54,144 nt of DNA, taken from positions 1 through 54,144 of the forward strand of contig CAKZPS010000060.1 of assembly GCA_937139415.1 (NCBI GenBank). The letters run 5' to 3'. Shown here piece by piece: positions 3,022 to 40,289 of this stretch. The notes beneath the pieces were generated by a model. It had not been told where the DNA came from. It made no database searches and saw nothing but the letters and a program-made list of their open reading frames with translations. The translations under genes were made by a program, and so were the position numbers. Source of the DNA: an uncultured bacterium. GTDB taxonomy: Bacteria > Atribacterota > Atribacteria > Atribacterales > Caldatribacteriaceae. Each line of letters starts with the position of its first letter. The stretch's first letter is position 1.

Positions 3022-4535
3022 CCCTCTCCGGCCATTTTCACTCCCAAGACCTGTGCCTCTTCTTTGGTGAGACCTACCGCTCGAAGCTGTTCACGATTCC
3101 CTCGTAAGCTCTCAATAGCATTGATACCCATGCCACCGAGAATTTCTTTAATTTCCAAGGACCAAGCCCGCAAGAGATTCACCAATCTCCGTTTCCCCAT
3201 TTGGGGGTTCAAACGTTTGGTGAGATACGGGTCTTGCGTGGCAATACCCCAATTGCACTTTCCGGTGTAACACTTCTGACACAAGTGGCATCCTAAAGCC
3301 AAAAGCGCCGAAGTTCCGATATACACGGCGTCAGCACCCAAGGCAATGGCTTTCACCACGTCACTGCTCGAGCGAATACCACCGGCGATGACAATCGAAG
3401 CGCGATGCCGAATCCCTTCTTTGCGTAAACGCTCGTCAACTTGAGCCAGAGCAAGCTCAATAGGAATACCGACGTTATCCCGAATCACCTGCGGTGCCGC
3501 ACCCGTTCCTCCTCGAATCCCGTCAATGGCAACGATATCTGCTCCCGCCCGTACTGCTCCTGAGGCAATTGCCGCCACATTATGGACGGCGGCAATCTTT
3601 ACCGAAATCGGCTTCTCGTAGCGGGTTGCTTCTTTCAAGGCAAAGACAAGACGCTCCAGGTCTTCGATGGAATAGATATCATGGTGCGGAGCAGGAGAGA
3701 TGGCATCGCTCCCCACGGGAATGCGCCGGGTGCGAGAGATTTCCGGAGACACCTTTTCCCCCGGTAAATGCCCTCCGATACCGGGTTTTGCCCCTTGTCC
3801 GATCTTAATTTCCACCGCCGCCGCCACCTCGAGGTACTCCGGGGTCACCCCAAAACGTCCCGAAGCCACCTGAACAATGATCCAATCTCCCAAGGGATAG
3901 AAACCGGGATGCAATCCTCCCTCACCACTATTACAAAATGTTCCTATCTCTTTTGCCGCTTCAACAAGGGAACGAAAGGCATTATAGCTAATCGAACCAT
4001 AGGACATTGCGGAAAAGAGAACGGGAATGCTGAGCTCCAATTGAGGGGCTAAGCGAGTCTTGAGACCAGCAAATTCCTCACTCCAAGCCACTTCTAAAAA
4101 CGGTTCCTTTTTCCCTAAAAAGGTGCGAATCTCAATCGGTTCACGCAAGGGATCAATAGAGGGATTGGTGACTTGGCTGGCATTGAGGAGTAAATGGTCC
4201 CAATAAATAGGATAGGGCTTATCACAACCCATCCCGGTGAGCAAAACTCCGCCGGTCTCCGCCTGTTTATAGAGATTACGGATCGAGGCTACATCCCAAT
4301 TAGCATTAGGACGAAATCCGATCTCTCTCTTTCTGATCTCTAAAGCCCCGGTCGGGCAGAGAGTCACGCACCGTTGACATCCCACACAGTGTTCTTCGGC
4401 GCTGTATACCGTGTCATCCTCAGGATCATAGCTATGGACCTCATTGGCACACTGTCGAACACAAACTTGACAGGAAATACACCTCTCTGCATCCCGTTCA
4501 ATTTTAAACTCGGGGAAAAGCAAACTCTTGGCCAT
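3015..4535 (-). CDS. Glutamate synthase, FMN/Fe-S synthase domain (GltB2 type)
   Basis: Catalytic core converting 2-oxoglutarate plus ammonia and electrons to glutamate. The 506 residues start with two ferredoxin-like [4Fe-4S] motifs (CISCQVCVRQC and CVGCQRCVTLC, residues about 18-65), an N-terminal extension typical of the archaeal-type enzyme. The FMN-binding TIM barrel follows (ISPAPHHDIYSIEDL, then ADIVAIDGIRGGTGAAP), and a further Cys cluster, CHLCQKCYTGKC near residue 415, matches the 3Fe-4S site of glutamate synthases. The gene overlaps the amidotransferase gene upstream by 32 nt and the ferredoxin downstream by 7 nt. The amidotransferase domain, normally fused in bacterial GltB, is encoded separately. 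Confidence 0.9.
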   Translation of the reverse strand: MAKSLLFPEFKIERDAERCISCQVCVRQCANEVHSYDPEDDTVYSAEEHCVGCQRCVTLCPTGALEIRKREIGFRPNANWDVASIRNLYKQAETGGVLLTGMGCDKPYPIYWDHLLLNASQVTNPSIDPLREPIEIRTFLGKKEPFLEVAWSEEFAGLKTRLAPQLELSIPVLFSAMSYGSISYNAFRSLVEAAKEIGTFCNSGEGGLHPGFYPLGDWIIVQVASGRFGVTPEYLEVAAAVEIKIGQGAKPGIGGHLPGEKVSPEISRTRRIPVGSDAISPAPHHDIYSIEDLERLVFALKEATRYEKPISVKIAAVHNVAAIASGAVRAGADIVAIDGIRGGTGAAPQVIRDNVGIPIELALAQVDERLRKEGIRHRASIVIAGGIRSSSDVVKAIALGADAVYIGTSALLALGCHLCQKCYTGKCNWGIATQDPYLTKRLNPQMGKRRLVNLLRAWSLEIKEILGGMGINAIESLRGNREQLRAVGLTKEEAQVLGVKMAGEGW

Positions 4536-5604
4536 GACAAATACCCTCTTTCAGTCGCCCAATCATTACTTCTCCGGCATGAAGAGCTTTCACTACATCC
4601 AAAGATGGAGCAATTGCACGTATGGCGCTCTCTTCACTGGCGAGATAGAAGGTGTCTCCACTCCATCCGGCGACCATAGGACGCAACTTAATCCGATCCA
4701 CCAACCCAAACATACCCCCTTCAAAACCCACAATGATGCTAAAGGGACCGTTGAGCAAAGCACCGCCATAGGTAATACGCAAGGCCCGGTAAAAACTTTT
4801 CTGGGGTTCGTTCATCTCTTCAATCTGGGACCAAAAAGGTCCGGCAAGAATCGCGCCCAAAAAAGAAGGATCAACGCGATGACGTCGCAACAAGAGATCG
4901 ACAAGATAGGCAATAACCTCGGTATCGGTTTGCAGAGTACAGAGATATCCAAAGTTTTCCAAATATCGGCGATTCACCCCATACGAAGAGAGTTCACCAT
5001 TATGAACTACCGAGAATTGCAACAAATTAAAGGGGTGAGCACCTCCCCACCAACCGACACTATTGGTGGGGAAACGCCCATGAGCAATCCAACAATACCC
5101 TTCATATTCTTCAATGCGGAAAAATCTCCCAATGTCTTCAGGATACCCCACCCCCTTGAACACCCCCATATTCTTCCCGCTCGAAACCACATACGCTCCT
5201 TCAATCATGGCGTTAATGGTCATCACTAAACGGACCACCACATCTTCCTCATTGTCTCTTGTCCTCTTGGGATACAGGAAGTATCGGAAAAAGAAGGGAT
5301 GATCGGTGATGGTGGAGTTCTCCCAGATCGGGATACTCTCCTCTTGTTCGATGGTGAAATCCTTCTGGAGTAACTCTTCAACCTCCGATCGGGCAGAGAG
5401 ATCGTCATACAATACATGGAAAGCATAGAGTTCGGCGAATTGAGGGTAAATACCGTACCCTGCAAAACCACCACCCAATCCGTTGGAACGCTCATGCATC
5501 ACTTCCATGGATCGGATGATCACCTCTCCCGAGACTCGCCTTCCATCCTGATGCAAAATGCCTGCAACCGCACACCCAGAAGGAATTCTCACCTTTTCTC
5601 TCAT
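4504..5604 (-). CDS. Glutamine amidotransferase class II, glutamate synthase GATase subunit (GltB1 type)
   Basis: Hydrolyses glutamine to supply ammonia to the synthase subunit. The 366 residues show class II (Ntn) amidotransferase features: a candidate nucleophile Cys at residue 11 (IPSGCAVAGIL), WIAHGRFPTNSVGWWGGAHPF mid-protein and the HNGELSSYG motif. The Cys is preceded by about ten residues, so activity would need removal of a short propeptide, as in long-form glutamate synthases and some purine amidotransferases, or an unrecognised internal start. It follows glnA by 17 nt, putting glutamine production and consumption in one operon. A stand-alone asparagine synthase is less likely given the neighbours. 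Confidence 0.85.
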   Translation of the reverse strand: MREKVRIPSGCAVAGILHQDGRRVSGEVIIRSMEVMHERSNGLGGGFAGYGIYPQFAELYAFHVLYDDLSARSEVEELLQKDFTIEQEESIPIWENSTITDHPFFFRYFLYPKRTRDNEEDVVVRLVMTINAMIEGAYVVSSGKNMGVFKGVGYPEDIGRFFRIEEYEGYCWIAHGRFPTNSVGWWGGAHPFNLLQFSVVHNGELSSYGVNRRYLENFGYLCTLQTDTEVIAYLVDLLLRRHRVDPSFLGAILAGPFWSQIEEMNEPQKSFYRALRITYGGALLNGPFSIIVGFEGGMFGLVDRIKLRPMVAGWSGDTFYLASEESAIRAIAPSLDVVKALHAGEVMIGRLKEGICHGQEFAFPRV

Positions 5605-5621
5605 TGTGGTTCTCTTCCTCC

Positions 5622-6956
5622 TCAGAGTATCGGTAAGTATCGTTCGATTTCGTAAGGATGAACCACCAATCGATATTCATCCCACTCAACCATCTTGCTC
5701 TTGATGAAATATTCGAAAATATGGTCACCCAGGGCCTTTTTCACGATTGAGCTCTCTCGAGCGCAATCAATGGCTTCTTTAAGACTCCCCGGTAAAGAAG
5801 CGATCCCAAGTTTTTCTCGTTCCCATTCCTGCATATGATATACATCTCTTTCCACCGGCTCAGGAAGTTCGTAATTACCCTCGATTCCCGCCATTCCCGC
5901 CGCCAACATAACCGAAAAAGCCAAATAGGGGTTGCAGGCCGGATCGGGATTCCGAACCTCGATACGGGTGGCTTTCTCTTTTCCTGGCTTATACATGGGT
6001 ACCCGTACCAAAGCAGAACGATTCCGCCGTGCCCAACAAATATATACCGGTGCTTCATATCCGGGCACTAAACGCTTATAGGAATTGACCCACTGATTGG
6101 TGACGAGAGCAATTTCCCGGGCGTGACGGAGGATTCCGGCAATATACTTCTTGGCGATATCAGAGAGATAATAAGGGTCATTGGCGTCAAAAAAGGCGTT
6201 CTGCTCTCCCCGGAAAAGAGACTGATGGGTATGCATCCCCGAACCATTAATTCCCATAATCGGTTTGGGCATGAAAGTAGCATACACACCGTGTTTCTGG
6301 GCAATTTCCTTCACCACAATGCGATAGGTCATGACCTGATCAGCCATGGTTAAAGCATCTGCATAGCGAAGGTCAATCTCGTGCTGAGAGTATGCCACCT
6401 CATGGTGACTATATTCCACCCGAATACCCATTTCCTCGAGGGTACGGATAGTATCCCTACGGAGATCCGAGGCGGCATCGAGAGTGGTAAGGTCGAAATA
6501 ACCTCCTCTATCCAAGGGAATCGGTTCATTCTCACTCTTAAAGTAGAAAAATTCCAACTCGGGGCCGACGTAAAAAGAGAAACCCTTTTCCTTTAACTTC
6601 TCGAGGTTAATCCGGAGAATATACCGTGAGTCACCGGCAAAAGGTGTACCATCAGGGTTGAGAATGTCACAAAACATGCGACCTACTTTCTCTACGCCTT
6701 CTCGCCAAGGGAGTAACTGAAAGGTACAGGGATCCGGCATAGCGATCATATCACTTTCATCGATGCGAGCAAAACCCTTGATCGAAGAACCATCAAAACC
6801 CATACCTTCATTGAGTGCCATCTCGAGTTCTTCTACGGGTATCGCAAAACTCTTGAGACTCCCCAGGACATCAGTAAACCACAAACGAATGAATTTCACC
6901 TTATTTTCCTTGCAGAAGGCAATGACCTCTTCTTTACTCCGTAAGTTGCAGGGCAT
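5622..6956 (-). CDS. glnA: Glutamine synthetase type I
   Basis: ATP-dependent synthesis of glutamine from glutamate and ammonium. The 444-residue length is that of GSI-alpha enzymes. Visible signatures include WFTDVLGSLKSFAIP near the N terminus, the GMGFDGSSIKGF segment (about residues 51-62), the NGSGMHTHQSLF metal/ATP region (about 245) and RRNRSALVRVP (about 315). I do not see the extra insertion and adenylylation segment of GSI-beta enzymes, so feedback inhibition or repressor-type control would be expected instead. First gene of the operon. Its leader holds a strong intrinsic terminator behind a near-consensus promoter, which suggests control by attenuation. Confidence 0.95.
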   Translation of the reverse strand: MPCNLRSKEEVIAFCKENKVKFIRLWFTDVLGSLKSFAIPVEELEMALNEGMGFDGSSIKGFARIDESDMIAMPDPCTFQLLPWREGVEKVGRMFCDILNPDGTPFAGDSRYILRINLEKLKEKGFSFYVGPELEFFYFKSENEPIPLDRGGYFDLTTLDAASDLRRDTIRTLEEMGIRVEYSHHEVAYSQHEIDLRYADALTMADQVMTYRIVVKEIAQKHGVYATFMPKPIMGINGSGMHTHQSLFRGEQNAFFDANDPYYLSDIAKKYIAGILRHAREIALVTNQWVNSYKRLVPGYEAPVYICWARRNRSALVRVPMYKPGKEKATRIEVRNPDPACNPYLAFSVMLAAGMAGIEGNYELPEPVERDVYHMQEWEREKLGIASLPGSLKEAIDCARESSIVKKALGDHIFEYFIKSKMVEWDEYRLVVHPYEIERYLPIL

Positions 6957-7224: not shown

Positions 7225-7668
7225 GTGAAGGAAACAGTGAAAATTTCAACCCGTCTACGGTATGGTTTACGACTCCTCGTAGATTTAGCCATTTACTCTC
7301 AGGGCTACCCCCTAAAACTGAAAGACGTTTCTCGCCGACAGCACATCTCCCTCCCTTATCTCCGCCAATTAGCCCTTCTCCTTGAGGCTTCCGGGATGAT
7401 CCGTAGCCTCCGGGGTAACAAAGGGGGGTATCTTCTGGGTCGCCCACCCGAGAAAATTTCCCTCCTCGAAGTAGCCACCATCCTCGAAGGACCACTCCAT
7501 CTTGTAGAGTGTGCCGATAACCCCAACCACTGCCAACGATCGTCACAGTGTATGACTCGTGAATTATGGTATGAACTTACCTCCCAAATTCGTCAAGTCT
7601 TGGCTGGGAAAACTTTGTCTGACTTCATCCCTAAAGAAGGTGAAAGAAATGATTTACCTCGATTGTAA
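7225..7668 (+). CDS. Rrf2-family transcriptional regulator, IscR-like
   Basis: A 147-residue Rrf2 protein with an N-terminal winged helix-turn-helix (LRYGLRLLVDLA, then ISLPYLRQLALLLEASGMIRSLRGNKGGYLL) and three Cys residues, C96, C103 and C109, spaced like the [2Fe-2S] ligands of IscR. It therefore probably senses Fe-S cluster status. GTG start at 7225 with AAGGGA five nt upstream. The end overlaps nifS by 20 nt, so regulator and cysteine desulfurase are translationally coupled. A dyad over its own start site suggests autoregulation. Confidence 0.9.
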   Translation: MKETVKISTRLRYGLRLLVDLAIYSQGYPLKLKDVSRRQHISLPYLRQLALLLEASGMIRSLRGNKGGYLLGRPPEKISLLEVATILEGPLHLVECADNPNHCQRSSQCMTRELWYELTSQIRQVLAGKTLSDFIPKEGERNDLPRL

Positions 7669-8809
7669 TGCGACTACTCCCTGCGATCAGAGAGTCATTG
7701 AAGCCATGTTGCCTTTTTTCGCCGAGAAATTCGGTAACCCTTCATCGCTCCACAGCATCGGACAAGAAGCGAAAAAAGCCTTAGAAACAAGTAGACACAC
7801 TATTGCCCAATGCCTGGGCGCTGAGGACCAAGAAATTATTTTCACCTCCGGCGGAACCGAGGCGAATAACTTAGCCATTCGAGGGAGTGCCTACGCCTTG
7901 TGGAATAAAGGAAACCACTTGATCACCTCGGCCATCGAACACCATGCGGTACTCAACGTGTTCAAGGCCTTAGAGAAAGAGGGGTTTCAAGTCACCTACC
8001 TCCCCGTTGACGAGAACGGCCTCGTCGATCCCCAAGAATTCAAAAAATCCATTACCCCCCGCACCACCCTCGTTTCCATTATGCACGCCAATAATGAAAC
8101 AGGGGTCATCGAACCGATCCAAGAAATAGCCTCTCTGGCCAAAGAGTATGGTCTTCTCTTCCACACTGATGCAGTGCAAACCATTGGCAAACTCTCTTTC
8201 AATGTGAAGGAAATTCCTGTGGACCTCCTCTCTGCTTCCGCCCATAAATTCTACGGACCAAAGGGAGTCGGTTTCCTCTACGTCAAGAAAGGAGTGCGCC
8301 TCATCCCCCAAATCCTTGGTGGTCCCCACGAACGAGGAAAACGAGCGGGAACAGAAAACGTCCCCCTCATCGTCGGCATGGCCAAAGCTCTGGAAATAGC
8401 CCAAGCTAACTGGGAAGATGAATATCGCCACGTAGAGGAACTGCGTAATCGCTTAGAACAAGGAATCACCGAGCGCATTCGCGAAGTCACCGTGGTGGGG
8501 AAGAATGCTCCTCGCCTTCCCAATACCAGTATGATCCTCGTCAAGTACGTAGAAGGTGAAGCAATGCTTTTAAACCTTGATTTTGCAGGTATTTGCGTCT
8601 CGAGTGGTTCGGCCTGCACCTCCGGGTCCCTGGAACCCTCTCATGTGCTTCTCTCCTGTGGTTATCCCCACGAGATCGCCCACGGATCGGTTCGGTTTAG
8701 CTTAGGGCGGTCGAACACCGTGGAGGAAATACAAACCGTCCTCGAAGTGTTTCCTCACATTGTGGAGAAGTTACGGAACATTTCTCCTTTCGGAAAAGAG
8801 GCGATATAA
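7649..8809 (+). CDS. nifS: Cysteine desulfurase, NifS/IscS family
   Basis: PLP enzyme that removes sulfur from cysteine as a protein persulfide for Fe-S cluster assembly. I choose the ATG at 7649 (product MIYLDCNATTP..., 386 residues), which has AAGGTGAAAG upstream and gives the standard N terminus. An in-frame ATG further upstream would add an unrelated tail lying inside the regulator gene. Visible: the aldimine Lys in SASAHKFYGPKG, FHTDAVQ of the PLP site, and the mobile loop SSGSACTSGSLEPSHVL with the catalytic Cys. The SGSACTSG form with following residues fits the NifS/IscS group. nifU begins 3 nt downstream. Confidence 0.95.
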   Translation: MIYLDCNATTPCDQRVIEAMLPFFAEKFGNPSSLHSIGQEAKKALETSRHTIAQCLGAEDQEIIFTSGGTEANNLAIRGSAYALWNKGNHLITSAIEHHAVLNVFKALEKEGFQVTYLPVDENGLVDPQEFKKSITPRTTLVSIMHANNETGVIEPIQEIASLAKEYGLLFHTDAVQTIGKLSFNVKEIPVDLLSASAHKFYGPKGVGFLYVKKGVRLIPQILGGPHERGKRAGTENVPLIVGMAKALEIAQANWEDEYRHVEELRNRLEQGITERIREVTVVGKNAPRLPNTSMILVKYVEGEAMLLNLDFAGICVSSGSACTSGSLEPSHVLLSCGYPHEIAHGSVRFSLGRSNTVEEIQTVLEVFPHIVEKLRNISPFGKEAI

Positions 8810-8812
8810 ACC

Positions 8813-9208
8813 ATGTATAGCGAAAAGGTCTTGGAACACCTCCGCAATCCTCGTAATGTAGGGAAAATAGAGAATCCCGATGGCGTGGGCAAGGTGGGAA
8901 ACCCGGTGTGTGGAGATGTCATGGTCATGTACCTCAAAATTAGAGATAATATCATCGAAGACGCCAAATTCGAAACCTTTGGCTGCGGTGCAGCCATTGC
9001 CACCTCTTCCATAGCCACCGAACTCATTAAAGGAAAAACCATTGAAGAGGCCCTCTCCATCACCAATCGAGCTGTTGCCGACGCCCTCGACGGATTGCCA
9101 CCCCAGAAAATGCACTGTTCGGTGTTAGCCGAAGAAGCGATCCGTTCGGCCATCAACGATTACTTGGCGAAGAAGAGGGTTGAAAATGGAGAAGGAAGGA
9201 TATCGTGA
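8813..9208 (+). CDS. nifU: Fe-S cluster assembly scaffold, NifU/IscU N-terminal type
   Basis: A 131-residue scaffold on which [2Fe-2S] and [4Fe-4S] clusters are built with sulfur from the preceding desulfurase. The three conserved Cys are present (C33 in NPVCGD with D35, C58 in FGCGAAIA, C102 in MHCSVLA). It lacks the C-terminal Nfu domain of the long nitrogenase NifU. The last 23 nt overlap the hydE start. The C-terminal tail (KKRVENGEGRIS) is lysine- and glycine-rich and overlaps the next gene's ribosome site. Confidence 0.92.
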   Translation: MYSEKVLEHLRNPRNVGKIENPDGVGKVGNPVCGDVMVMYLKIRDNIIEDAKFETFGCGAAIATSSIATELIKGKTIEEALSITNRAVADALDGLPPQKMHCSVLAEEAIRSAINDYLAKKRVENGEGRIS

Positions 9209-10259
9209 GCTCTTAACTCAGCTTGCCCACACCGAAGACCTCTCTCAAGAGGAACTCGCTCTCCTCCTTGCTTGCGAAGACGAGGAAATCACCGCAGAAC
9301 TGTTCACCCTGGCCGACGAGAAACGTCGAAAATACGCTGGAGATGCGGTGCACCTCCGCGGTCTCATAGAGTTCTCTAACTACTGCCGCAAGAATTGTCT
9401 CTACTGTGGGCTACGGCGAGACAATCGTTCCCTTCCTCGCTATCGCATGAGTATTGAGGAAATATATACGGTGGGCGAGAAAATCGCCCGCTTAGGAGTG
9501 AAGACCATCGTCTTACAATCGGGAGAAGACCTTTCTTACGACGCCCGGTCCATTGCTTCTCTCCTCCATCGGCTCAAAAAATTAGGGGTGGCCATTACCC
9601 TGAGTATCGGGGAACGGACTAAGGAAGAGTATGCGCTGTGGCGAGAGGCAGGTGCCGATCGATACCTCTTGAAACAAGAGACTTTTGACGAACAACTGTT
9701 TCGCAAGCTCCACCCCGACGACGACCACTCCCATCGCCTCGCTTGCCAAAAAATCCTCGCCGAACTCGGATACCAAGTCGGAAGCGGGAACATGGTCGGC
9801 CTGCCCGGTCAAACCATCGAAGCCATTGCCTTAGACATTAAAAGCTTCCAGCGATGGAACTTCGACATGATCGGTATCGGTCCTTTCATTCCCCATCCCG
9901 ATACCCCACTTGGAAACTTCGCCCCCGATAGGAAAAAACAGTATCTCTTAACCCTCAAAACCTTAGCCCTCACCCGCATCTTGACTCGAGACACTCACCT
10001 TCCCGCCACCACTGCTTTGGGGACGCTTGTTTCCGGAGGGAGAGAAAAGGGGCTCCAGTGTGGCGCTAACGTCCTCATGCCCAACTTTACCCCCCTCGCC
10101 TATCGTTCCCACTATACCATTTATCCGGGGAAAATCTGTCTCCAAGAAGAGTGGGGTAAGTGCGTCGCGTGCATGTCCATGATGCTCAAAGAATTGGGAA
10201 GAAGTGTAGCCCAAGATCACGGCCACAGAGAGAGAAAGAAGGCACCCGCAGAAGAGTAG
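9186..10259 (+). CDS. hydE: [FeFe]-hydrogenase maturase HydE-like radical SAM protein
   Basis: Radical SAM enzyme with C67-x3-C71-x2-C74 (CRKNCLYCG) for the [4Fe-4S] cluster that cleaves S-adenosylmethionine. The surrounding IEFSNYCRKNCLYCGLRRDN...RYRMSIEE is characteristic of HydE, which helps build the diiron subcluster of [FeFe]-hydrogenase. The related PylB is less likely because no pyrrolysine genes are near. I take the ATG at 9186 (357 residues) since AGAGGG lies 6 nt upstream; a TTG six nt earlier is also in frame. It is the last gene of the regulator-nifS-nifU operon. No hydrogenase structural gene is in the window. Confidence 0.85.
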   Translation: MEKEGYRELLTQLAHTEDLSQEELALLLACEDEEITAELFTLADEKRRKYAGDAVHLRGLIEFSNYCRKNCLYCGLRRDNRSLPRYRMSIEEIYTVGEKIARLGVKTIVLQSGEDLSYDARSIASLLHRLKKLGVAITLSIGERTKEEYALWREAGADRYLLKQETFDEQLFRKLHPDDDHSHRLACQKILAELGYQVGSGNMVGLPGQTIEAIALDIKSFQRWNFDMIGIGPFIPHPDTPLGNFAPDRKKQYLLTLKTLALTRILTRDTHLPATTALGTLVSGGREKGLQCGANVLMPNFTPLAYRSHYTIYPGKICLQEEWGKCVACMSMMLKELGRSVAQDHGHRERKKAPAEE

Positions 10260-11572: not shown

Positions 11573-13216
11573 TCACCAACCCAATGCTTTTACACGTTCC
11601 CTTTCGGAAAGAATCTTTCCCTGAGCATCGACACACCGCACTACTCCTCCAACGACCCGGGTTTCCATCTTCCCTTGCGCTTCTCTATTTCCCCGGAGAT
11701 GCGGAGCATCAAAAATGCCACTTCGTACCGCCTGGGCGAGAACTCGAGGAGAGAGAAAGGGGTCAGGTTCTCTTTCTCCTATCTTGCGCAGGGTATCAAG
11801 GAGGAACCATGCCTCTTCTTTCAGCTCTTCCTTTCTCTCTCTCACTCTTTGGTCGCCACTCACGTTGGGCAGCCCCAAGAGGAGGTCCCGGAGAACTCCG
11901 TTCACAATACGGGCGCTCTCGATGACCTCTTGTGCACCTACCAAACGAATCGCCTCGGAGAAACCGACCACGTGGACGATGTGAGGCTGCAAGAAAAGCC
12001 CCAAAGCGGTCGAGGCACCGAGTTGTCCCTTGGCAATCGCTTCCTGAGGAGCAAAATGCGCTAATCCTCCTCGGATCTGGGTGAAAATGGTGAAATGATC
12101 ATCGGCAAGTTGCTCCACAAGCTCTTTCTTCGCCAACATCTTCGCTATATCCGCCCACGGATCGATACCGGGAGGAGTGTTGAACATGTACTGAGCCACA
12201 TAGAAACGAGCTCCCAATTTTTTCGCCTGATAACAAGCGAGGTAAAAAGTTGCTACCGCCACTGCATCTGAAGCACCTCGCAAACTCCATTGATGTGCCT
12301 CTAAGCCTTCTATCGGAACTCCCAAGGCAATATAGGTGCGTACCGCCTCTTGGTTCTCGCGAATAGCCTCTTCTAAGGAACGCTGACTCCGGCCATCTAA
12401 AACACTGTACCAAAAGATAGGCACCGCTCCCCAGGCAATGTGAATCGTCTCATGGAGGAAGTGAGCCCACCGCACTAAGTCGTTTGTCCCGCTGTAACAC
12501 CGGAGGAGGGGAAAATTTCCCCGGCGAGAGGCACGGTAGATAGCCTCCAAATCTTCTCTCTTGCGGAGCGGGACCCCCCCTGCTCCGGTGTATTCCTCTT
12601 CCATCTGTTCGGGACGAAAGAAGAATTCCTGGGCATTCTGATCGGGCCCGAGGGAAATAACATCCACAGCCTTGGACTCGGCAATTTCTGCCACCCCTTG
12701 CACCGTTTCTTCCACCGTAGGGAGACCGAAGTGATGTCGCAAAAGGGGGAAAGGACTTTTGGCTTTGATTCTCTCCGGCAAGCTCTGCGGATACTGCTCG
12801 CGGGGTGAGGAGGTGTCAACACCCCGCAAAGTTCCCACAAGATCGGTGAATTCCTCTTCCCCGGTGAAAACGGCATCAAAGATACCCACCTTCAAGGCGA
12901 TGGGCTTCAATGTCGGAGTGCAACTCAAAAAGAGGGTACATTTCCCCAAGAGCTTCCTCTCTTTGAGCACTTGGGCTAATTCTTGAAAAAGCTTTTCTCC
13001 GGTTTCCGGCGAGAGACGATACCCCACGAGGACCTTTTGAGGGCTTTCTCTTTCTATAACCCGCACCAATTCCTGCACCGGAACCGCCGGGCCAAGGAAG
13101 ATCGATCGATAACCCATTTCTTCTGCAAGCTGCAAGAAACGGTACACCCCAGCCACATGGACACAATTACCGATCGAGGCACCGACGATACGAGATTTAT
13201 TTGACATCGACTTCAA
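11573..13216 (-). CDS. Cobalamin-binding-domain protein with mutase-like barrel
   Basis: A 547-residue protein of uncertain function. Residues 10-140 look like a B12-binding Rossmann domain, but the usual D-x-H-x-x-G motif reads C18-V-H20-V-A-G23, so the cobalamin-ligating His is in place while the Asp is replaced by Cys. Residues about 175-470 resemble the catalytic barrel of glutamate/ornithine-type aminomutases (HQWSLRGASDAVAVATFYL, YVAQYMFNTPPGIDP, AKGQLGASTALGLFLQPHIVHVVGFSEA). I cannot name the reaction. The start overlaps the end of the opine dehydrogenase gene by 20 nt, so the two are coupled, and an amino-acid or opine conversion is likely. Confidence 0.6.
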   Translation of the reverse strand: MKSMSNKSRIVGASIGNCVHVAGVYRFLQLAEEMGYRSIFLGPAVPVQELVRVIERESPQKVLVGYRLSPETGEKLFQELAQVLKERKLLGKCTLFLSCTPTLKPIALKVGIFDAVFTGEEEFTDLVGTLRGVDTSSPREQYPQSLPERIKAKSPFPLLRHHFGLPTVEETVQGVAEIAESKAVDVISLGPDQNAQEFFFRPEQMEEEYTGAGGVPLRKREDLEAIYRASRRGNFPLLRCYSGTNDLVRWAHFLHETIHIAWGAVPIFWYSVLDGRSQRSLEEAIRENQEAVRTYIALGVPIEGLEAHQWSLRGASDAVAVATFYLACYQAKKLGARFYVAQYMFNTPPGIDPWADIAKMLAKKELVEQLADDHFTIFTQIRGGLAHFAPQEAIAKGQLGASTALGLFLQPHIVHVVGFSEAIRLVGAQEVIESARIVNGVLRDLLLGLPNVSGDQRVRERKEELKEEAWFLLDTLRKIGEREPDPFLSPRVLAQAVRSGIFDAPHLRGNREAQGKMETRVVGGVVRCVDAQGKILSERERVKALGW

Positions 13217-14303
13217 CTCCCACCACCATTTCTCGTATTTCTTTCACACTCATACCCGCTACCCCAAGTTTCTCTACTGTCCTTCCCTCCGCCACGTAGT
13301 CCCGTCCATGGAGAATATTGGCCAAATGGATGAAAATATCGATGGTAGGAGTAGGTACCCCCAACATTTTCCCGAAAGAAGCAATGGGAACTAAACTCAT
13401 TGGTACATCTTCGGTGATATAGCGATGAAAAATAGTGGAAGGAGCACGAATACCCTGATAACCGGGGTTGTTCTGAATGGCTTCGTAGAGATTCCTCCCG
13501 TGGGCATCATAGGCATAGTAGAGCCACTCGCGTGCAGTATTCACCCGTACCCCCAAAGCCTCTGCCACCTTCACCCGCTCACGGTCAACTGCCTCTAAAA
13601 TGAGCGCTACCGAGGGAGTAATGCCCTCGAGGTAATAATCAAACTCTCCACGGGTACTCTCAATGCGAGCCGCATTCAAAATGGTCAAAGTAGGATGAAA
13701 TACTGCCCCGATATTACTGAAGCTCGTCTTGAGAACATTATCTTCCGGTACGAACTGAGGGAGAGCCTTGCGCAACATTTGCACCACCTCTATGGTCCGA
13801 TAGGCGGGAAGAGCAGCAACGGGAATACTATTCTTAATCCGAAAAATCCGCGCTTGGGCCGGACCAGAAATGCGACTGGCGAAAAGAAAGGTTTGGGCTT
13901 CGGCAATGATCACTTGTACCCCTATTTCCCGTTCTTTGAAAACTTGTCTCACTTCTAACACCCCACCGGTACGCCCCGGATTCAAGATAATGATTTGCCC
14001 ATCCTCGAGGTAGGGAGCGACAAGTTCAGCCAAGAACCGGTGGGCATTGGCAGGGGTAACCACCATGATGATTTTCACCCCCCGAATGGCTTCCTCGATA
14101 TTGTGGGTCACCAGGCGCAAGGGGGCAAAACCGTTCATTTCTCCCTCGATTTGAATTCCCCCCATGAGTTTAATAGAACTAATCCGTTCAGGGCTGCGAT
14201 TGAAGAGATTGACCGGAAAACCGCGTAAGGCTAAATATCCGGCCAGGGCCTGCCCTCCATGCCCTGCACCTAAAACCGCAAAAGAAAGTTCATTTAAGGA
14301 CAT
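13197..14303 (-). CDS. NAD(P)-dependent opine (octopine/nopaline) dehydrogenase family protein
   Basis: A 368-residue oxidoreductase with the N-terminal dinucleotide-binding motif GAGHGGQALAG (residues 12-22) and an octopine dehydrogenase C-terminal domain (VFHPTLTILNAARIEST around residue 210, with the conserved His). Family members reductively join or cleave an amino acid and an alpha-keto acid. Direction and substrate cannot be read from sequence. Its start overlaps the ATP-grasp gene by 14 nt and its end overlaps the cobalamin-domain gene by 20 nt, forming a tight three-gene operon. It is not part of a sugar or cell-wall cluster. Confidence 0.8.
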   Translation of the reverse strand: MSLNELSFAVLGAGHGGQALAGYLALRGFPVNLFNRSPERISSIKLMGGIQIEGEMNGFAPLRLVTHNIEEAIRGVKIIMVVTPANAHRFLAELVAPYLEDGQIIILNPGRTGGVLEVRQVFKEREIGVQVIIAEAQTFLFASRISGPAQARIFRIKNSIPVAALPAYRTIEVVQMLRKALPQFVPEDNVLKTSFSNIGAVFHPTLTILNAARIESTRGEFDYYLEGITPSVALILEAVDRERVKVAEALGVRVNTAREWLYYAYDAHGRNLYEAIQNNPGYQGIRAPSTIFHRYITEDVPMSLVPIASFGKMLGVPTPTIDIFIHLANILHGRDYVAEGRTVEKLGVAGMSVKEIREMVVGVEVDVK

Positions 14304-15309
14304 TGCGTAACCTTTCTTGGGCGATACCCACCAATCTCTGAATCATTTCTTTGTAGCCCACTCCTGTCGTCTCACACATGCGAGGGAAAGCGCTATGCTT
14401 ATAGTAAAGATTAGGAAGGGAGTTCATTTCAAAAAAGAAGGGCATTTCCTCTTTTTCGGCAAAGATGAGATGAAAGGTGGCAAAGTCACGAATATCGAGT
14501 TCCTGACAAATCTTTACCACCATTCTTTCGACAACATCCCTCTCCTCTTCGGAGAGCGAAGAAGGACAGAGAGCGTCTTCAACATACCCTTTTCTCCACT
14601 TCTCCTGCGAATCCCAAATGAGGCAATTTTTCCCTAAGTTGACTTCCACAAAGGGCAAAATTTCTCTCTGTGGACCGTTTCCCCACATCCCCACCACGAT
14701 TTCCTTCCCGAGGATCAACCGCTCGACCACTAACTTTTCTCCCAGTTTTTCGGCAAAGAGGGAAATTTTCCTTTCCAAATCCTCTCTCTCGGTGCTCACC
14801 GCTTCCAGGGTAACCGGATTCTTGGTGGTTCGAAAACGAGGTTTAATCACCACCGGGAAATCGAGGTTTTCCGGAATGGCCTCTCCTTGAGTGAAGAGAA
14901 AACAAGAGGGGGTAGGAATACCCATGCCTCGCAAGGTGAGTTTCAAGAGTACCCGATCCAAGGAGAAAGAGTGCACAATGGCATTCGAACCCAAATAGGG
15001 AATGCCTAAGGCATCTAAGACCGAGGGCAAAACGGACTGGTTGTAGGTCCCCGAAACCGAAACCGAGAGATTGAAGGCAAAATCGATTTTCTCCTTGTGA
15101 ATCTTGCGAATAACTCTGTCTAAGGGTTCATCAACATTCAAAGAAATAACTTCGAAGGACATCTCTCCTAAGGCTTCTTCGATAAGGACGAGCGTCTTTC
15201 CCTTGAAATTGGGCTTGAGTTGATAATACGCTTCTTCCCGCTCCTCAAAGAATGTTTTACTCCACATGAGGCCAATTTTGCGAACGGTTCCCACCTCCTT
15301 TGGCACCAT
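14290..15309 (-). CDS. ATP-grasp ligase, D-alanine-D-alanine ligase-like
   Basis: A 339-residue ATP-grasp enzyme related to Ddl. Visible are the N-terminal substrate fold (DFAFNLSVSVSGTYNQSVLPSVLDALGIPYLGS), ATP-binding segments FPVVIKPRF and ILGKEIVVGMWG, and the metal site FFFEMNSLPNL (N-S-L-P-N). Ddl itself has a G-T-P-G type ending, and the operon lacks cell-wall genes, so I expect a peptide-forming ligase acting on amino-acid-like substrates in the opine/cobalamin operon. Start uncertain: a strong AAAGGAGGTG lies inside the frame just after the first ATG, so translation may begin later (ATG at 15267). First gene of the operon. Confidence 0.7.
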   Translation of the reverse strand: MVPKEVGTVRKIGLMWSKTFFEEREEAYYQLKPNFKGKTLVLIEEALGEMSFEVISLNVDEPLDRVIRKIHKEKIDFAFNLSVSVSGTYNQSVLPSVLDALGIPYLGSNAIVHSFSLDRVLLKLTLRGMGIPTPSCFLFTQGEAIPENLDFPVVIKPRFRTTKNPVTLEAVSTEREDLERKISLFAEKLGEKLVVERLILGKEIVVGMWGNGPQREILPFVEVNLGKNCLIWDSQEKWRKGYVEDALCPSSLSEEERDVVERMVVKICQELDIRDFATFHLIFAEKEEMPFFFEMNSLPNLYYKHSAFPRMCETTGVGYKEMIQRLVGIAQERLRNVLK

Positions 15310-15441
15310 GGTGAGAGAAAAATACCGTGTTTGAGTGAAGCAAGATTATGCAATGCCCTTTCATTGTACCATTTCTACAAAAATGGAATCAACCGCATCC
15401 AAGACAGCCTACTGATAGGTGCGATACGCCCTCTCTTCCTG

Positions 15442-16461
15442 CTAAAACACAATTTGCACCTTCAAATGATCGGGATTGGTAAGTACGTCCTCCAGTGCTT
15501 TTCCAAATTCTCGGAGCGGATAGGTAGCAGAAATGAGATTCTTGACCTCTACTTTTCCTCCCTCGAGCATATTGAGAGAATACTGCATGGTCTTTTTCAC
15601 CGCAAAAGACCCAATGATGTGGAGATCCTTGCGAAAGACTTCATAGGGGTCGAGGGAGATTTTTGAACCTCGTGGGGCTACCCCAAAGAGGAGAAAAGTC
15701 CCATCAGGTTCCACAAACTCCCATTCCCGTTCCATGACTGCAGGAATGCCGGTAGCATCAACCACAATCTCAAATCCTTGAGGAGCAATTTTCCTTATTT
15801 TCTCTCCCTCTCTCCCATCAGCCAAGATCACCTCATCGGCACCAAGATTTTTGGCCAAATGGAGTTTTTTCTCGCTCACATCCACCATGACCACAAGCGA
15901 AGCGCCACTTGCGCGGAAAAGAGTAGCCAATAAGAGCCCAATAGGACCGGCACCGAAAATGAGTACCTTTTCCCCTGGGCGGATGCCACTCCGCTCTACT
16001 CCATAAACCACGCAAGCGAGTGGTTCTGCCAACGCTCCCTCCTCAAAGGTAAGGCGCGAAGACAAGGGGAACACGCATTTCTCGGGAACCGGGACCAGCT
16101 CTGCGAACGCACCCCCACGGGTCACTCCCACTGCCTGGAGATTGAGACAGTGGTTATTCTTGTTAATCTTGCAATAGTAACAGCGATCACAAAAAATATT
16201 GGGGTCAGCCGTTACCCGATCCCCCAGACGAAATTGTGTGACTTTCTCTCCTACTTCAACCACCTCTCCGGAAAATTCATGCCCGGCAACGATGGGAAAA
16301 TCCTGAAAATACTCTCCCTTCAAAATATGAATGTCGGTCCCGCAAATCCCCGCCGCTTTGACCCGAATCAACACCTCATGAGGGAGAGGTTTTGGCTCGG
16401 GAATTTCCCGGATTTGCCACTCGTTCTTTCCTTCAAAAACACACGCTAACAAAATAACCAC
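15442..16461 (-). CDS. Zinc-dependent medium-chain alcohol/sorbitol-type dehydrogenase
   Basis: A 339-residue medium-chain dehydrogenase. The catalytic zinc Cys lies in AAGICGTDIHIL, followed by GHEFSGEVVEVG; the structural zinc site is FCDRCYYCKINKNNHC (four Cys); the NAD-binding motif is IFGAGPIGLL near residue 170, with VMVDVSEKKLHLA following, whose Asp suggests NAD(H) preference. Threonine, sorbitol and other polyol dehydrogenases share this architecture, so the substrate is open. A GTG start at 16461 is used. It is divergent from the TTT transporter and separated by 132 nt from the ATP-grasp operon. Confidence 0.85.
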   Translation of the reverse strand: MVILLACVFEGKNEWQIREIPEPKPLPHEVLIRVKAAGICGTDIHILKGEYFQDFPIVAGHEFSGEVVEVGEKVTQFRLGDRVTADPNIFCDRCYYCKINKNNHCLNLQAVGVTRGGAFAELVPVPEKCVFPLSSRLTFEEGALAEPLACVVYGVERSGIRPGEKVLIFGAGPIGLLLATLFRASGASLVVMVDVSEKKLHLAKNLGADEVILADGREGEKIRKIAPQGFEIVVDATGIPAVMEREWEFVEPDGTFLLFGVAPRGSKISLDPYEVFRKDLHIIGSFAVKKTMQYSLNMLEGGKVEVKNLISATYPLREFGKALEDVLTNPDHLKVQIVF

Positions 16462-16594: not shown

Positions 16595-16623
16595 TTGACA
16601 AAGCATTCTTACCCTGTTACATT
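16595..16623 (+). promoter_or_regulatory. Promoter of the tctCBA-aldolase operon
   Basis: TTGACA at 16595-16600, a 17-nt spacer and TACATT at 16618-16623, about 29 nt before the tctC ATG at 16652, which has GGGAGGG upstream. Reads as a good sigma-70-type promoter for the transporter operon. Confidence 0.65.
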
Positions 16624-16651
16624 GAGAAAAAGAGTGAGGGAGGGACAAGAG

Positions 16652-17623
16652 ATGAAAAAAATATTTCGGATGGTAGTTTGTTTAATGGTGATGACTCTCC
16701 TCTTCGGTCTTTTCGTATCCACCGCCGGCGCAGCGTACCCTGAAAAAGAAATTCTCCTCATCATTCAAGCCGCACCGGGAGGTGTCTCCGACGCGGTAGG
16801 GAGGGCCATGGCTGCTGCTGCCCAAGAGTTTTTGGGCGTACCCATTACTCCTACGAATATTACTGGCGCGGCAGGTGCCATTGCCATGGGGAAGTTGAAG
16901 AGTAGTCCTCCCGACGGCTACACCGTGGGATACGTACCGGTAGAACTCTCCATGGTCAAAGCTCTCGGATATGCCGATATCTCCCCTGACGATTTCGACC
17001 TCATCATGCGGACCAACATCGTTCCTGCTGCCCTTACCGTACGTGCCGATGCACCGTATAAAACCTTCGAAGAGTTTGTCCAATATGCCAAGAACAATCC
17101 TGGAGCAATTCTTGTTGGAACTTCAGGCACGGGGTCCATTTGGCACATCGCCGGGTTGGCCCTCGAAGAAGCAATCGGTACTCAATTCACTTTTGTTCCC
17201 TTTGATGGAGCTGCTCCCAGCGTTGCTGCTCTCCTTGGGAAACATATAAACGCCGTTACCTGTAGCCCCAGTGAAGTTCTCTCCGGGGTTCAAGCAGGTG
17301 AACTCAATATTCTCGCCGTATTGGGCGCAGAGCGAACCCAACTCTTCCCCGATGTGCCCACCGCCCAAGAGTTAGGGTACGATATTAACGTCATGGCTTG
17401 GGGTGGTTTTGCCCTCCCCAAAGGAGTACCCAAAGAAGTGTATGACAAAATTGCCGATGCTTTCTACAAAGCTTTCCAATCGGAAACCTTCACCAAGGTA
17501 ATGAAGGAACGTGGTATCCAAATGGCCTATCTCGATGGCCCGGCCTTCGCCGAATTTGCCAAACAACAATTCGAACTCTATATGGAACTCATTCCCAAAG
17601 CATTGGGAACCAAGAAAGAATAA
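16652..17623 (+). CDS. tctC: Tripartite tricarboxylate transporter, solute-binding protein (TctC/Bug family)
   Basis: Periplasmic or extracellular solute-binding protein of a TTT transporter. The ATG at 16652 gives 323 residues starting with a signal peptide (MKKIFRMVVCLMV..., cleavage likely after TAGA, about residue 26). Bug-family features follow: AYPEKEILLIIQAAPGGVSDAVGR, ITGAAGAIAMGKLKSSPPDGYTVGY, and GTSGTGSIWHIAG for ligand carboxylate contacts. These proteins bind carboxylic acids such as citrate, malonate or terephthalate; the ligand is not decidable. tctB and tctA follow in the classical order. Confidence 0.92.
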   Translation: MKKIFRMVVCLMVMTLLFGLFVSTAGAAYPEKEILLIIQAAPGGVSDAVGRAMAAAAQEFLGVPITPTNITGAAGAIAMGKLKSSPPDGYTVGYVPVELSMVKALGYADISPDDFDLIMRTNIVPAALTVRADAPYKTFEEFVQYAKNNPGAILVGTSGTGSIWHIAGLALEEAIGTQFTFVPFDGAAPSVAALLGKHINAVTCSPSEVLSGVQAGELNILAVLGAERTQLFPDVPTAQELGYDINVMAWGGFALPKGVPKEVYDKIADAFYKAFQSETFTKVMKERGIQMAYLDGPAFAEFAKQQFELYMELIPKALGTKKE

Positions 17624-17678
17624 AAACACCCTTTCCTCATCCTGATTTCTCAAAGGGAAGGAGCATAAGGAAACCGCA

Positions 17679-18107
17679 ATGGCAGAGGTTATTTTCGGAA
17701 TCGTTACCGTAATCTTGGGAAGTTTCATCCTCTGGGAAGCCTCACGACTTCCCAGAGGAGTGCTCACTTATGCTCTCGATCCAGCGCTTTTCCCTCGCAT
17801 TATAGCGGTGGGTCTCATCGCCTTGGGTATCTTACTCTCTCTCACCCATCTCCGCCACAAGAAGAGCGAAACCTCGAACTCGACCAGCGTACTTCACATG
17901 GTCCGTTTACTCCTCCTCATCGGGAGTACGGTTGGATATATCCTCTTCTGGGATCGAGGTTCTTTCCTCATCAATACCTTTCTCTATCTCTTCGTCGCTC
18001 ATCTCATCACCCGTTATAAACCACTCCCTTCAGCCCTTTCCTCGATCGTGGTCACTCTGTGTACCTATCTCCTCTTTACTCAAGTCTTTCGTGTGAGACT
18101 CTTTTAA
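17679..18107 (+). CDS. tctB: Tripartite tricarboxylate transporter, small membrane subunit TctB
   Basis: A 142-residue membrane protein with about four hydrophobic segments, beginning AEVIFGIVTVILGSFILWEA and containing LYALDPALFPRIIAVGLIALGI-like text typical of TctB (the DPxxFP motif is present as DPALFPR). It partners the large subunit encoded 18 nt downstream. Located in the cytoplasmic membrane. Confidence 0.88.
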   Translation: MAEVIFGIVTVILGSFILWEASRLPRGVLTYALDPALFPRIIAVGLIALGILLSLTHLRHKKSETSNSTSVLHMVRLLLLIGSTVGYILFWDRGSFLINTFLYLFVAHLITRYKPLPSALSSIVVTLCTYLLFTQVFRVRLF

Positions 18108-18125
18108 AGAAAAGGACGATGTCGC

Positions 18126-19631
18126 ATGCCTGAGTTCTTGGTCGCCCTTACTCACATCCTTGAACCGGGGGTTTTTCTCTATTTGGTTCTGGGAACCCTG
18201 CTTGGACTCGCGGTGGGAACTCTTCCCGGGCTTACCGCCACTATGGCAGTGGCCATTCTCACTCCGCTCACTTTTTGGCTTCCCTATGAAAGAGGTTTGG
18301 CAGTGCTCGTGGGAGTATGGAACTCGGCCATTTTCTCGGGAGGAATATCGGCTATCCTCATTAATATTCCCGGAACTCCTGCTTCTATCGCTTCCACCTT
18401 TGACGGTTATCCCCTCACCCAGCAAGGAAAAGCGGGATTGGCTCTAGGAATTAATGTTCTCTACTCGGCCATTGGAGGGCTTTTTGGTGCCGTAATCTTT
18501 ATGCTTGCAGCCTTTCCCTTGGCTCGCTTTGCCCTCTCCTTTGGCCCGGCCGAGTATTTCGCTCTGGGACTTTTTGGCTTGAGCATGATGATTGCCGTTT
18601 CGGGAACTTCAATCATTAAAGGACTCATTGCCGGTTTTGTGGGATTGGCCTTGAGTCTTGTGGGCCTCGATCCTATGTTGGCAACACCACGATTCCATTT
18701 CGGGAATCCCAATCTCTTGGGCGGTATCTCTTTCATTCCCCTCATGATTGGTCTCTTTGGTCTCGGAGAGGTTTTCCACCAAATGACCCTCTCCATGCCT
18801 TTTGAAGAGAGAGAAAAAACTCCCGTTGGCACCCTGGTGGGGAAAAAATTGGGGAGAATGCTCGTGAATGCGAGAGAATTCCTCCAAACCCTTCCTGCCA
18901 CCCTTGTAGGGAGTATCACCGGAGTCATCATCGGTGCTATCCCCGGAACCGGAGCCGACATTGCCTCCCTCCTTGGATGGGAGTTCTCTCGGCGCATTTC
19001 CCGAGAAAAAGAGAAATTCGGGAAAGGTTCTATCGAGGGTTTGGCCTCTACTTGTGCGGCAAACAATGCTTGTCTTGGGGGAGCGCTCACCACCATGATG
19101 GCTTTGGGCATCCCTGGCGATGCGGTTACCGCGGTACTCATCGGTTCTTTCATCATGTACGGTGTGCAACCGGGTCCGGCGATGTTTCGCGACCGTGCCG
19201 ATTTCGTCTTTACCGTGATCGGACTCATGATCCTGGTCAATATAGTGTTCTTGGTTATCGGCTTCTTCTTTTCTCGCTTCGTGGGGGGATTCATCCTCCT
19301 CCCCAAACCCATTATGTGGTCCACCATCATCATTCTCTCTCTGGTGGGGTCTTTCTCTCTCAATAACCGTGTCTTTGACGTGTGGGTGGCTCTCTTGAGT
19401 GGCATCATGGGTTTTCTCTTCCGGCGTTACCGTTTTCCCTTAGGACCGATTATCCTGGCCCTCATTTTAGGACCGATGGTAGAACGCAACTTTCGCACCG
19501 CACTCATCATTTCCCGAGGCAATCCCGGTATTTTTTTCGTGAAGCCCATTTCTCTCGTACTCCTCGTCGGTACGGCTTTATCACTCTTCAGTCCCATTCT
19601 TCTACGACGTAAAAAGGAGGAAAGCGTATGA
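18126..19631 (+). CDS. tctA: Tripartite tricarboxylate transporter, large permease subunit TctA
   Basis: A 501-residue polytopic membrane protein with about twelve predicted membrane segments. Both conserved TctA signature regions are seen: GTLPGLTATMAVAILTPLTF near residue 27 and GAIPGTGADIASLLGWEFSRR near residue 270, followed by GIPGDAVTAVLIGSF. It is the channel-forming subunit of the secondary transporter. The stop overlaps the start of the aldolase gene by 4 nt, which ties the aldolase to the transported compound. Confidence 0.93.
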   Translation: MPEFLVALTHILEPGVFLYLVLGTLLGLAVGTLPGLTATMAVAILTPLTFWLPYERGLAVLVGVWNSAIFSGGISAILINIPGTPASIASTFDGYPLTQQGKAGLALGINVLYSAIGGLFGAVIFMLAAFPLARFALSFGPAEYFALGLFGLSMMIAVSGTSIIKGLIAGFVGLALSLVGLDPMLATPRFHFGNPNLLGGISFIPLMIGLFGLGEVFHQMTLSMPFEEREKTPVGTLVGKKLGRMLVNAREFLQTLPATLVGSITGVIIGAIPGTGADIASLLGWEFSRRISREKEKFGKGSIEGLASTCAANNACLGGALTTMMALGIPGDAVTAVLIGSFIMYGVQPGPAMFRDRADFVFTVIGLMILVNIVFLVIGFFFSRFVGGFILLPKPIMWSTIIILSLVGSFSLNNRVFDVWVALLSGIMGFLFRRYRFPLGPIILALILGPMVERNFRTALIISRGNPGIFFVKPISLVLLVGTALSLFSPILLRRKKEESV

Positions 19632-20548
19632 GACTCTTGGAAGGGGTTGTGGTTGCCCATCTCACCTTCTTCGACGAAGAGGGGAAGGTGGATTATCCCA
19701 CCTTCCGGCGTTATATCCACTTTTTAGCCGAAAAGGGGGTCAACGGTATTTTCGCGTGTGGAACCACTGCCGAAGGACAGATTTTATCTCTGGAAGAACG
19801 AAAAAGTGTTCTCGAGACCATCTTAGACGAGAATCAGGAAAAAATGACTATCGTCGCCCACTGTGGAACTACGAACCTCTCGGAAACCTGTGCTCTCATC
19901 GAGCATGCCCGCCGTATCAGTGCCCACGGCGCAGCAGTGGTCACTCCTTTTTACTATGCTTATACCCAAGAGGAACTCTACGAATACTATGCTACCATTG
20001 CGCGAAAATTCACCGATTTTCCTCTCTATCTCTACAACATTCCTTCCTTGACCAAGAATGACCTCTCCCCTTCTACCGTCGCTCGTTTGAGTCGGGAATT
20101 CCCCCATCTTGTGGGCATTAAAGACTCAAGCGGCAACTTTACTACCGTCTCATCGTACATCTTGGAAACTCGTGCCGACTTTCGGGTGATCGTGGGGTAT
20201 GACCGTGCTTTTCTTTCCGCACTCCTTCTCGGTGCCAAGGGGTGCGTGACCGGACCAGGGGGAGTTTTCCCTGAACCTTTCATAGCAGTATGGGAAGATT
20301 TTCAGCTCGGTGACTACCAGAAAGCCTTAGAAGATCAGCGCAAGCTGATCGCTTTCTCCTCTGCTCTACAAGAGGGTGCAAATTTAGCCATGCTCAAAGG
20401 AGGTATCGCTCTGCGCGGCTTCGGCAACGGACGCATGCGCGCACCTTTTCGCAGCCTTCCTCCCATCGAAAGGGACGCCCTCCGGAAAAAATTAGAGAAG
20501 GTTATTGCCGAAACCGGATATTGTGATAAGATTACTTTTATCCCATAA
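19628..20548 (+). CDS. DapA/NanA-family aldolase or dehydratase
   Basis: A 306-residue class I aldolase of the dihydrodipicolinate synthase/N-acetylneuraminate lyase superfamily. The Schiff-base Lys is K165 in VGIKDSSGNF and the catalytic Tyr is Y136 in LYLYNIPS; the carboxylate-binding GTTAEG motif is at residues 45-50. True DapA usually has GTTGES here, and the gene is coupled to a carboxylate transporter, so a catabolic role on a keto-acid (for example keto-deoxy sugar acid aldolase or dehydratase) is more likely than lysine synthesis. Substrate unknown. Confidence 0.85.
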   Translation: MRLLEGVVVAHLTFFDEEGKVDYPTFRRYIHFLAEKGVNGIFACGTTAEGQILSLEERKSVLETILDENQEKMTIVAHCGTTNLSETCALIEHARRISAHGAAVVTPFYYAYTQEELYEYYATIARKFTDFPLYLYNIPSLTKNDLSPSTVARLSREFPHLVGIKDSSGNFTTVSSYILETRADFRVIVGYDRAFLSALLLGAKGCVTGPGGVFPEPFIAVWEDFQLGDYQKALEDQRKLIAFSSALQEGANLAMLKGGIALRGFGNGRMRAPFRSLPPIERDALRKKLEKVIAETGYCDKITFIP

Positions 20549-40285: not shown

Positions 40286-40289
40286 AAAC

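Follow-up and report, generated by a model that had tools for sequence, protein, structure and literature searches.

A B12-dependent protein family has been predicted from four bacterial phyla, with members in 11 bacteria. Its gene always adjoins that of an octopine/nopaline dehydrogenase, and in several cases a D-Ala-D-Ala ligase and an asparagine synthase are encoded nearby; the accessible text of that account proposes no pathway for the family (PMC2667541; BMC Genomics 2009, 10:78). We analysed a stretch of 54,144 nucleotides (the window) from an uncultured bacterium of the Caldatribacteriaceae (Atribacterota; assembly GCA_937139415.1, contig CAKZPS010000060.1), which carries between positions 11,573 and 15,309, on the minus strand, genes for an ATP-grasp ligase, an opine-type dehydrogenase and a cobalamin-type mutase. 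The 2009 prediction we take to be the work of Zhang, Rodionov, Gelfand and Gladyshev. The window trio belongs to the kind predicted there, sharing its B12 domain, its neighbouring dehydrogenase and a ligase or asparagine synthase nearby, an identity that rests on matching the description given in the accessible text. An earlier sequence-only reading of the window had held that no described pathway combines the three genes; their association had in fact already been predicted, as far as that text goes without a pathway (PMC2667541). A literature search, outside which most subscription journals lay, found the association only in that paper and found no follow-up or assigned function. The fold assignment, the fusion to MutL and the occurrence in archaea described below go beyond the 2009 account, which in its accessible text assigns no function either.

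The ligase gene (14,290 to 15,309), the dehydrogenase gene (13,197 to 14,303) and the mutase gene (11,573 to 13,216) follow one another along the minus strand. The open reading frames overlap by 14 nucleotides (14,303/14,290) and 20 nucleotides (13,216/13,197), as the sequence-only reading had described. The mutase frame has an in-frame ATG at 13,207, preceded by GGGAG, as well as the TTG at 13,216; the ATG is probably the start, and the second overlap may therefore be 11 nucleotides. The families named in that reading agreed with the Pfam results, which were Dala_Dala_lig_C (4.8e-21) for the first gene, Octopine_DH (1.1e-51) for the second, and B12-binding (5.5e-5) with a weak match to Met_asp_mut_E for the third.

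The mutase consists of an N-terminal B12 domain (residues 6–135, nucleotides 12,812 to 13,201) and a GlmE-like barrel (residues 141–544, nucleotides 11,585 to 12,796). Against the B12-binding profile PF02310 the window protein scored 23.4 bits, under the Pfam cut-off of 32.1, and 52 of 53 family members matched the profile at E 0.01. The B12-type domain of the sequence-only reading, with its C-V-H-V-A-G sequence, is confirmed. This axial cobalamin motif, C18-V-H20-V-A-G23, is encoded at 13,148 to 13,165, and His20 and Gly23 are invariant in all 53 members. The cysteine in place of aspartate had been regarded as atypical; it is indeed present at residue 18, but it is the family norm, found in 71 of 81 mutases against 10 with the canonical aspartate, and the tree of these 81 sequences requires at least six switches between the two. 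As cysteine and aspartate interchange among close relatives, the cysteine is unlikely to abolish cobalamin binding, which is likely to have been kept.

An AlphaFold model of the mutase had a mean predicted local distance difference test score (pLDDT) of 92.5. The best match of the barrel among solved structures was GlmE of glutamate mutase (Foldseek 1.6e-17; VIA Z 33.9, root mean square deviation 2.9 over 375 residues). Next in order came lysine 5,6-aminomutase (Z 31.7), ornithine 4,5-aminomutase (Z 29.4) and methylmalonyl-CoA mutase. The earlier comparison to aminomutases was therefore right in pointing to a mutase barrel, but GlmE is nearer and the lysine characteristic of the aminomutases is missing, as discussed below. 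NCBIfam contained no family for the B12 protein, and when a profile of the barrel was compared with PDB sequences, three unrelated weak matches but no mutase came up. It is strongly supported that the third gene encodes an adenosylcobalamin (AdoCbl)-dependent mutase of the glutamate-mutase fold, with both domains in one chain. A CobA-type corrinoid adenosyltransferase was found in 22 of 24 genomes, including that of the window, and a PduO-type enzyme in one more (G372) brought the total to 23; judged from gene content, the window organism should be able to make AdoCbl from a corrinoid.

To follow the family across genomes we used a profile scan, as a scan with the single B12 protein sequence gave no matches. 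With alignment A1 the scan of genome contigs gave 259 candidate stretches, of which 237 were confirmed; the 80 loci described here are the best-scoring of these and are accordingly biased towards near relatives. The dehydrogenase gene was on the same strand as the mutase gene in all 80 loci, directly adjacent in 79 and upstream in 77; at the sole non-adjacent locus (L109) a MutL gene lies between the two. Pair-bearing taxa include Bacillota, Halanaerobiales, Thermosipho, Armatimonadetes, Acidobacteriota, Bacteroidales, Thorarchaeota, Lokiarchaeota and Methanofastidiosum, and for the phylum of one genome (G107) the search covered that single genome. The closest named relatives of the window genome were Candidatus Atribacteria and Caldatribacterium. 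Pairwise distances among the dehydrogenases correlated with those among the mutases (r 0.645 over 75 loci, after removal of the five of the 80 whose dehydrogenase is truncated), whereas the maximum of 2000 permutations was 0.202. Adjacency of the two genes is thus not due to chance: dehydrogenase and mutase form a two-enzyme core, a deep unit shared by many anaerobic bacteria and some archaea, and this linkage indicates a shared pathway.

Of a sample of 61 genomes, 25 belong to the same order, and 21 of these have the B12 protein, counting the window's own, one fragment at a contig edge and one split gene. In all 21 it is accompanied by the dehydrogenase and ligase-like genes in the identical arrangement. 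The mutase gene of one genome (G005; L020/L030) is broken into two frames near residue 55, through either an assembly error or decay to a pseudogene. At two further loci (L199 and L200) a Na+/H+ exchanger gene lies just downstream of the mutase gene, separated from it by a gene for a CBS protein (L199) or an open reading frame of similar length (L200). Antiporters or CBS proteins beside the pair at these loci and L194 might have hinted at an osmolyte, but the cases were too few, and the neighbours of the pair in Thermosipho and Methanofastidiosum, together with V-ATPase-like neighbours, resembled lineage background rather than parts of a pathway.

The dehydrogenase scored 175.3 bits against PF02317 (cut-off 30) and is homologous over its whole length to N-(1-D-carboxylethyl)-L-norvaline dehydrogenase (1bg6; 2.3e-82) and octopine dehydrogenase (3c7a; 1.1e-14). 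Like these enzymes it has the catalytic histidine and aspartate and an arginine close to the aspartate: His203 was found in all 78 and Asp299 in all 80 ungapped rows, and Arg294 is conserved too. It differs from them in being paired with a B12 mutase.

Amide-forming enzymes are less constant partners. The ligase-like gene was near the pair in 24 of the 80 loci, and in all 21 same-order genomes that have the pair, so that the trio does recur as neighbours in other genomes. As a unit of three it holds less well: the pair is universal in this set and the ligase is not a fixed part of it. Elsewhere the place of the ligase is taken by MutL or by an asparagine-synthase-like (AsnB-like) gene, the latter beside the pair in 10 loci; two others, L067 and L073, where a 613-residue asparagine synthase is encoded two genes away, were not counted. 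All ten AsnB-like proteins contain the SGGxD synthetase motif, and eight of them lack the catalytic N-terminal (glutaminase) cysteine that the other two keep. On the tree of 81 mutases the presence of the ligase requires at least six changes and that of the AsnB-like gene at least four, far fewer than with shuffled labels. Both are therefore clustered, and since each changed more than once, they have been gained or lost repeatedly. Distances among the ligases correlated with those of their mutases (r 0.939 over 24 loci; permutation maximum 0.464). The ligase gene comes first in Atribacterota and last in Thermosipho; together with its repeated changes, this difference in gene order marks it as a recurrent accessory rather than part of the core.

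The window ligase itself has the fold of D-Ala-D-Ala ligase (Ddl; Z 29.5 to 8fff) and shares its ATP-binding region. It is a paralogue of the cell's own enzyme: it scored 95.4 bits against NCBIfam TIGR01205, under the cut-off of 245.65, and a separate Ddl encoded in the window genome scored far better (247.8 versus 75.8 bits).

We propose, giving the idea about an even chance, that an AdoCbl-dependent skeleton rearrangement is coupled to opine-type C–N chemistry and that the product is amidated or ligated in some lineages. The mutase would rearrange the skeleton of an amino-acid-derived carboxylate, other than glutamate bound in the usual way, as its changed pocket (see below) suggests. The dehydrogenase, judged by its family, would make or break a secondary amine between that amino acid and a keto acid, either before or after the rearrangement. 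In the window the ATP-grasp enzyme, with its altered Ddl signature residues, may then activate a carboxylate of the product and join it to an amine, a step whose equivalent would be taken by the AsnB-like enzyme in other lineages. Cysteine would stand in for aspartate in the axial motif with cobalamin binding retained, as the repeated natural exchange suggests, and the direction of the pathway is taken to be biosynthetic. The suggestion of the sequence-only reading that an unusual metabolite might be synthesized was a fair one; the unit, the B12 domain, the mutase barrel and the conserved trio are supported as well. In pyrrolysine biosynthesis a mutase (PylB), an ATP-grasp ligase (PylC) and a dehydrogenase (PylD) likewise act on amino acids. 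The logic may be similar, but the families differ, PylB being a radical S-adenosylmethionine (SAM) enzyme and PylD not an opine dehydrogenase, and at the loci studied here dehydrogenase and mutase form the core, with the ligase optional.

Several observations weigh against this proposal. Neither type of ligase was beside the pair in 46 of the 80 loci, which means that an amide step is not universal. The ligase of the window may also be altered or inactive, since it has lost the equivalents of R255 and D257 of EcDdlB, residues that we take to be the R-x-D catalytic pair of Ddl; in alignment A5 these were absent from all 13 Atribacterota copies, a loss noted for the window and for L047–L058 and L107, whereas the 12 copies beside the pair elsewhere have them. 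MutL, the glutamate-mutase accessory protein, was absent from the window genome and was not found above the cut-off in 19 of the 24 genomes. In two of the five genomes where it was found it was of a form fused to the mutase; its rarity indicates that the paired form can usually do without it.

The fused form occurs in the other class of Atribacterota, which we take to be that labelled JS1. Here a mutase homologue approximately 33–35% identical to that of the window carries a fused MutL/GlmL domain (PF13941, 1.4e-85; GlmL in NCBIfam); four such sequences were left out of alignment A3. This fusion to the glutamate-mutase accessory protein, next to an opine-type dehydrogenase, speaks for the proposed module. 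An octopine-type dehydrogenase gene adjoins it in seven of eight loci (L021–L028), the eighth, L028, ending at the contig edge, and in all six of the wider JS1-class loci both the fused protein and the dehydrogenase were matched. TAXI-TRAP importers are encoded at L038–L040, two of them at L040 together with a D-glutamate-cyclase-like protein, and the hydrolases vary, an AAT-like enzyme at L039 and an MlrC-type peptidase at L046. The association of the fused homologue with importers and hydrolases suggests breakdown rather than synthesis, a further point against the biosynthetic proposal. The amide or lactam hydrolases of these loci mirror the amide-forming enzymes of the paired form, and this side of the family looks catabolic.

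Such a context raises the possibility, which we consider a tentative one and clearly less probable than the biosynthetic coupling, that the whole module is catabolic: an opine or N-substituted amino acid, once imported, would be rearranged by the mutase and oxidatively cleaved by the dehydrogenase, and the ATP-grasp enzyme would be accessory or serve another compound. Genes for a tripartite tricarboxylate-type importer and a DapA-family aldolase (16,595 to 20,548, plus strand) also adjoin the window trio, divergent from it. However, in the sister genus (L037) the trio lacks them as neighbours. Of the 80 loci, most hold nothing but the pair and have few genes on the same strand within 150 nucleotides, and amide-forming enzymes recur beside the pair.

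A second alternative is that the protein is a variant glutamate mutase, converting glutamate to 3-methylaspartate for condensation by the dehydrogenase and ligase. GlmE is the nearest fold, and MutL is fused to the mutase or encoded nearby in some members, the neighbouring genes at L109 and L115 having been recognised by eye and not by scanning all 80 loci systematically. Because the search against PDB sequences had yielded no mutase, the substrate pocket was mapped with profile and MAFFT alignments of sequences, not by superposing coordinates; true GlmE proteins (L162–L166) were aligned jointly with the window mutase, with numbering from 1cb7. GlmE residues R66, R100 and R149, located by alignment and taken by us to form the arginine claw, fell on H162, Q196 and Y241 of the window mutase, and the fused JS1-class homologue agreed. 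The place of R149 is that given by MAFFT, the hhalign alignment being plainly off there and leaving it unsettled. K326 of GlmE aligned with V417, whereas E330 aligned with the invariant E421. Two arginines of the window mutase, R160 and R239, precede H162 and Y241 by two residues on the same strands and may face the same side of the barrel, deeper within it. The Met_asp_mut_E profile (PF06368) gave the window mutase 19.0 bits, under its cut-off of 26.6, and matched only 18 of 53 family members at E 0.01. Unlike true GlmE loci, the surroundings of the pair contained no gene that we recognised as encoding methylaspartate ammonia-lyase. The likeness to glutamate mutase GlmES (1cb7, 6h9e) thus lies in the barrel fold and the aligned glutamate, and the window protein departs from it in having both domains on a single chain, in its pocket and in the cysteine of its axial motif. 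We consider a variant glutamate mutase unlikely.

An aminomutase dependent on pyridoxal phosphate (PLP), moving an amino group before the dehydrogenase acts, in the manner of ornithine or lysine fermentation, appears more unlikely still. Ornithine 4,5- and lysine 5,6-aminomutase are the next best folds after GlmE and have a related barrel and B12 domain. Ornithine aminomutase has a lysine 11 residues after the axial histidine, presumably that which binds PLP, but in the mutase family this lysine has no counterpart, the position being occupied by the near-invariant A31, and the sole near-invariant lysine is K359, in the barrel. With the GlmE arginines out of place and the PLP lysine absent, the enzyme is probably, as far as these alignments can tell, neither a glutamate mutase nor a PLP aminomutase. 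That the protein is a corrinoid carrier or sensor, coincidentally in an operon with the dehydrogenase, is highly improbable. The B12 domain by itself also resembles corrinoid methyltransferase carriers, but the mutase barrel joined to it is complete and has many polar residues that are invariant, and the linkage to the dehydrogenase spans two domains of life.

Upstream of the ligase gene a sigma-70-like promoter match (9/12; 15,363 to 15,392, minus strand) was found, with no excess of such matches over shuffled sequence in the region. Still further upstream lies a gene for a Zn-dependent dehydrogenase (15,442 to 16,461, minus strand), whose place beside the trio is kept in the sister genus alone (L037, L047). 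On the other side of the trio, on the opposite strand, a class-V aminotransferase (NifS-like), a NifU-like protein and a radical SAM protein are encoded in series (7,559 to 10,259, plus strand). Further away are genes for glutamine synthetase and a split glutamate synthase, whose GATase, FMN, GXGXG and NAD(P) oxidoreductase parts are separate genes (583 to 6,956, minus strand), and type I CRISPR-Cas genes for Cas_TM1802, Cas7 and a Cas3-like helicase (36,915 to 42,694, plus strand).

The coupling of rearrangement to opine chemistry proposed above can be drawn more specifically, though in this form it is doubtful. The dehydrogenase would join an amino acid and a keto acid, the mutase, as a new class of AdoCbl enzyme, would rearrange the resulting N-carboxyalkyl amino acid, and the amide-forming enzyme would close a lactam or cap an acid; the operons of the fused homologues would consume the product. 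Such a mutase would have its arginines shifted two residues along their strands, away from the glutamate-mutase places. In the lineages with AsnB-like enzymes, most of which have lost the glutaminase cysteine, the reaction would be a counterpart to that of beta-lactam synthetase on carboxyethylarginine.

Only a small number of AdoCbl-dependent mutases are known, each of which defines a pathway. The family described here is widespread, as judged from one genome scan, and tied to one partner enzyme. A GlmE fold with a different pocket, a constant opine-type dehydrogenase and interchangeable amide-forming enzymes narrow its annotation to a small set of assays. If the B12-dependent opine pathway is real, it would yield an unrecognised metabolite common to anaerobic bacteria and archaea.

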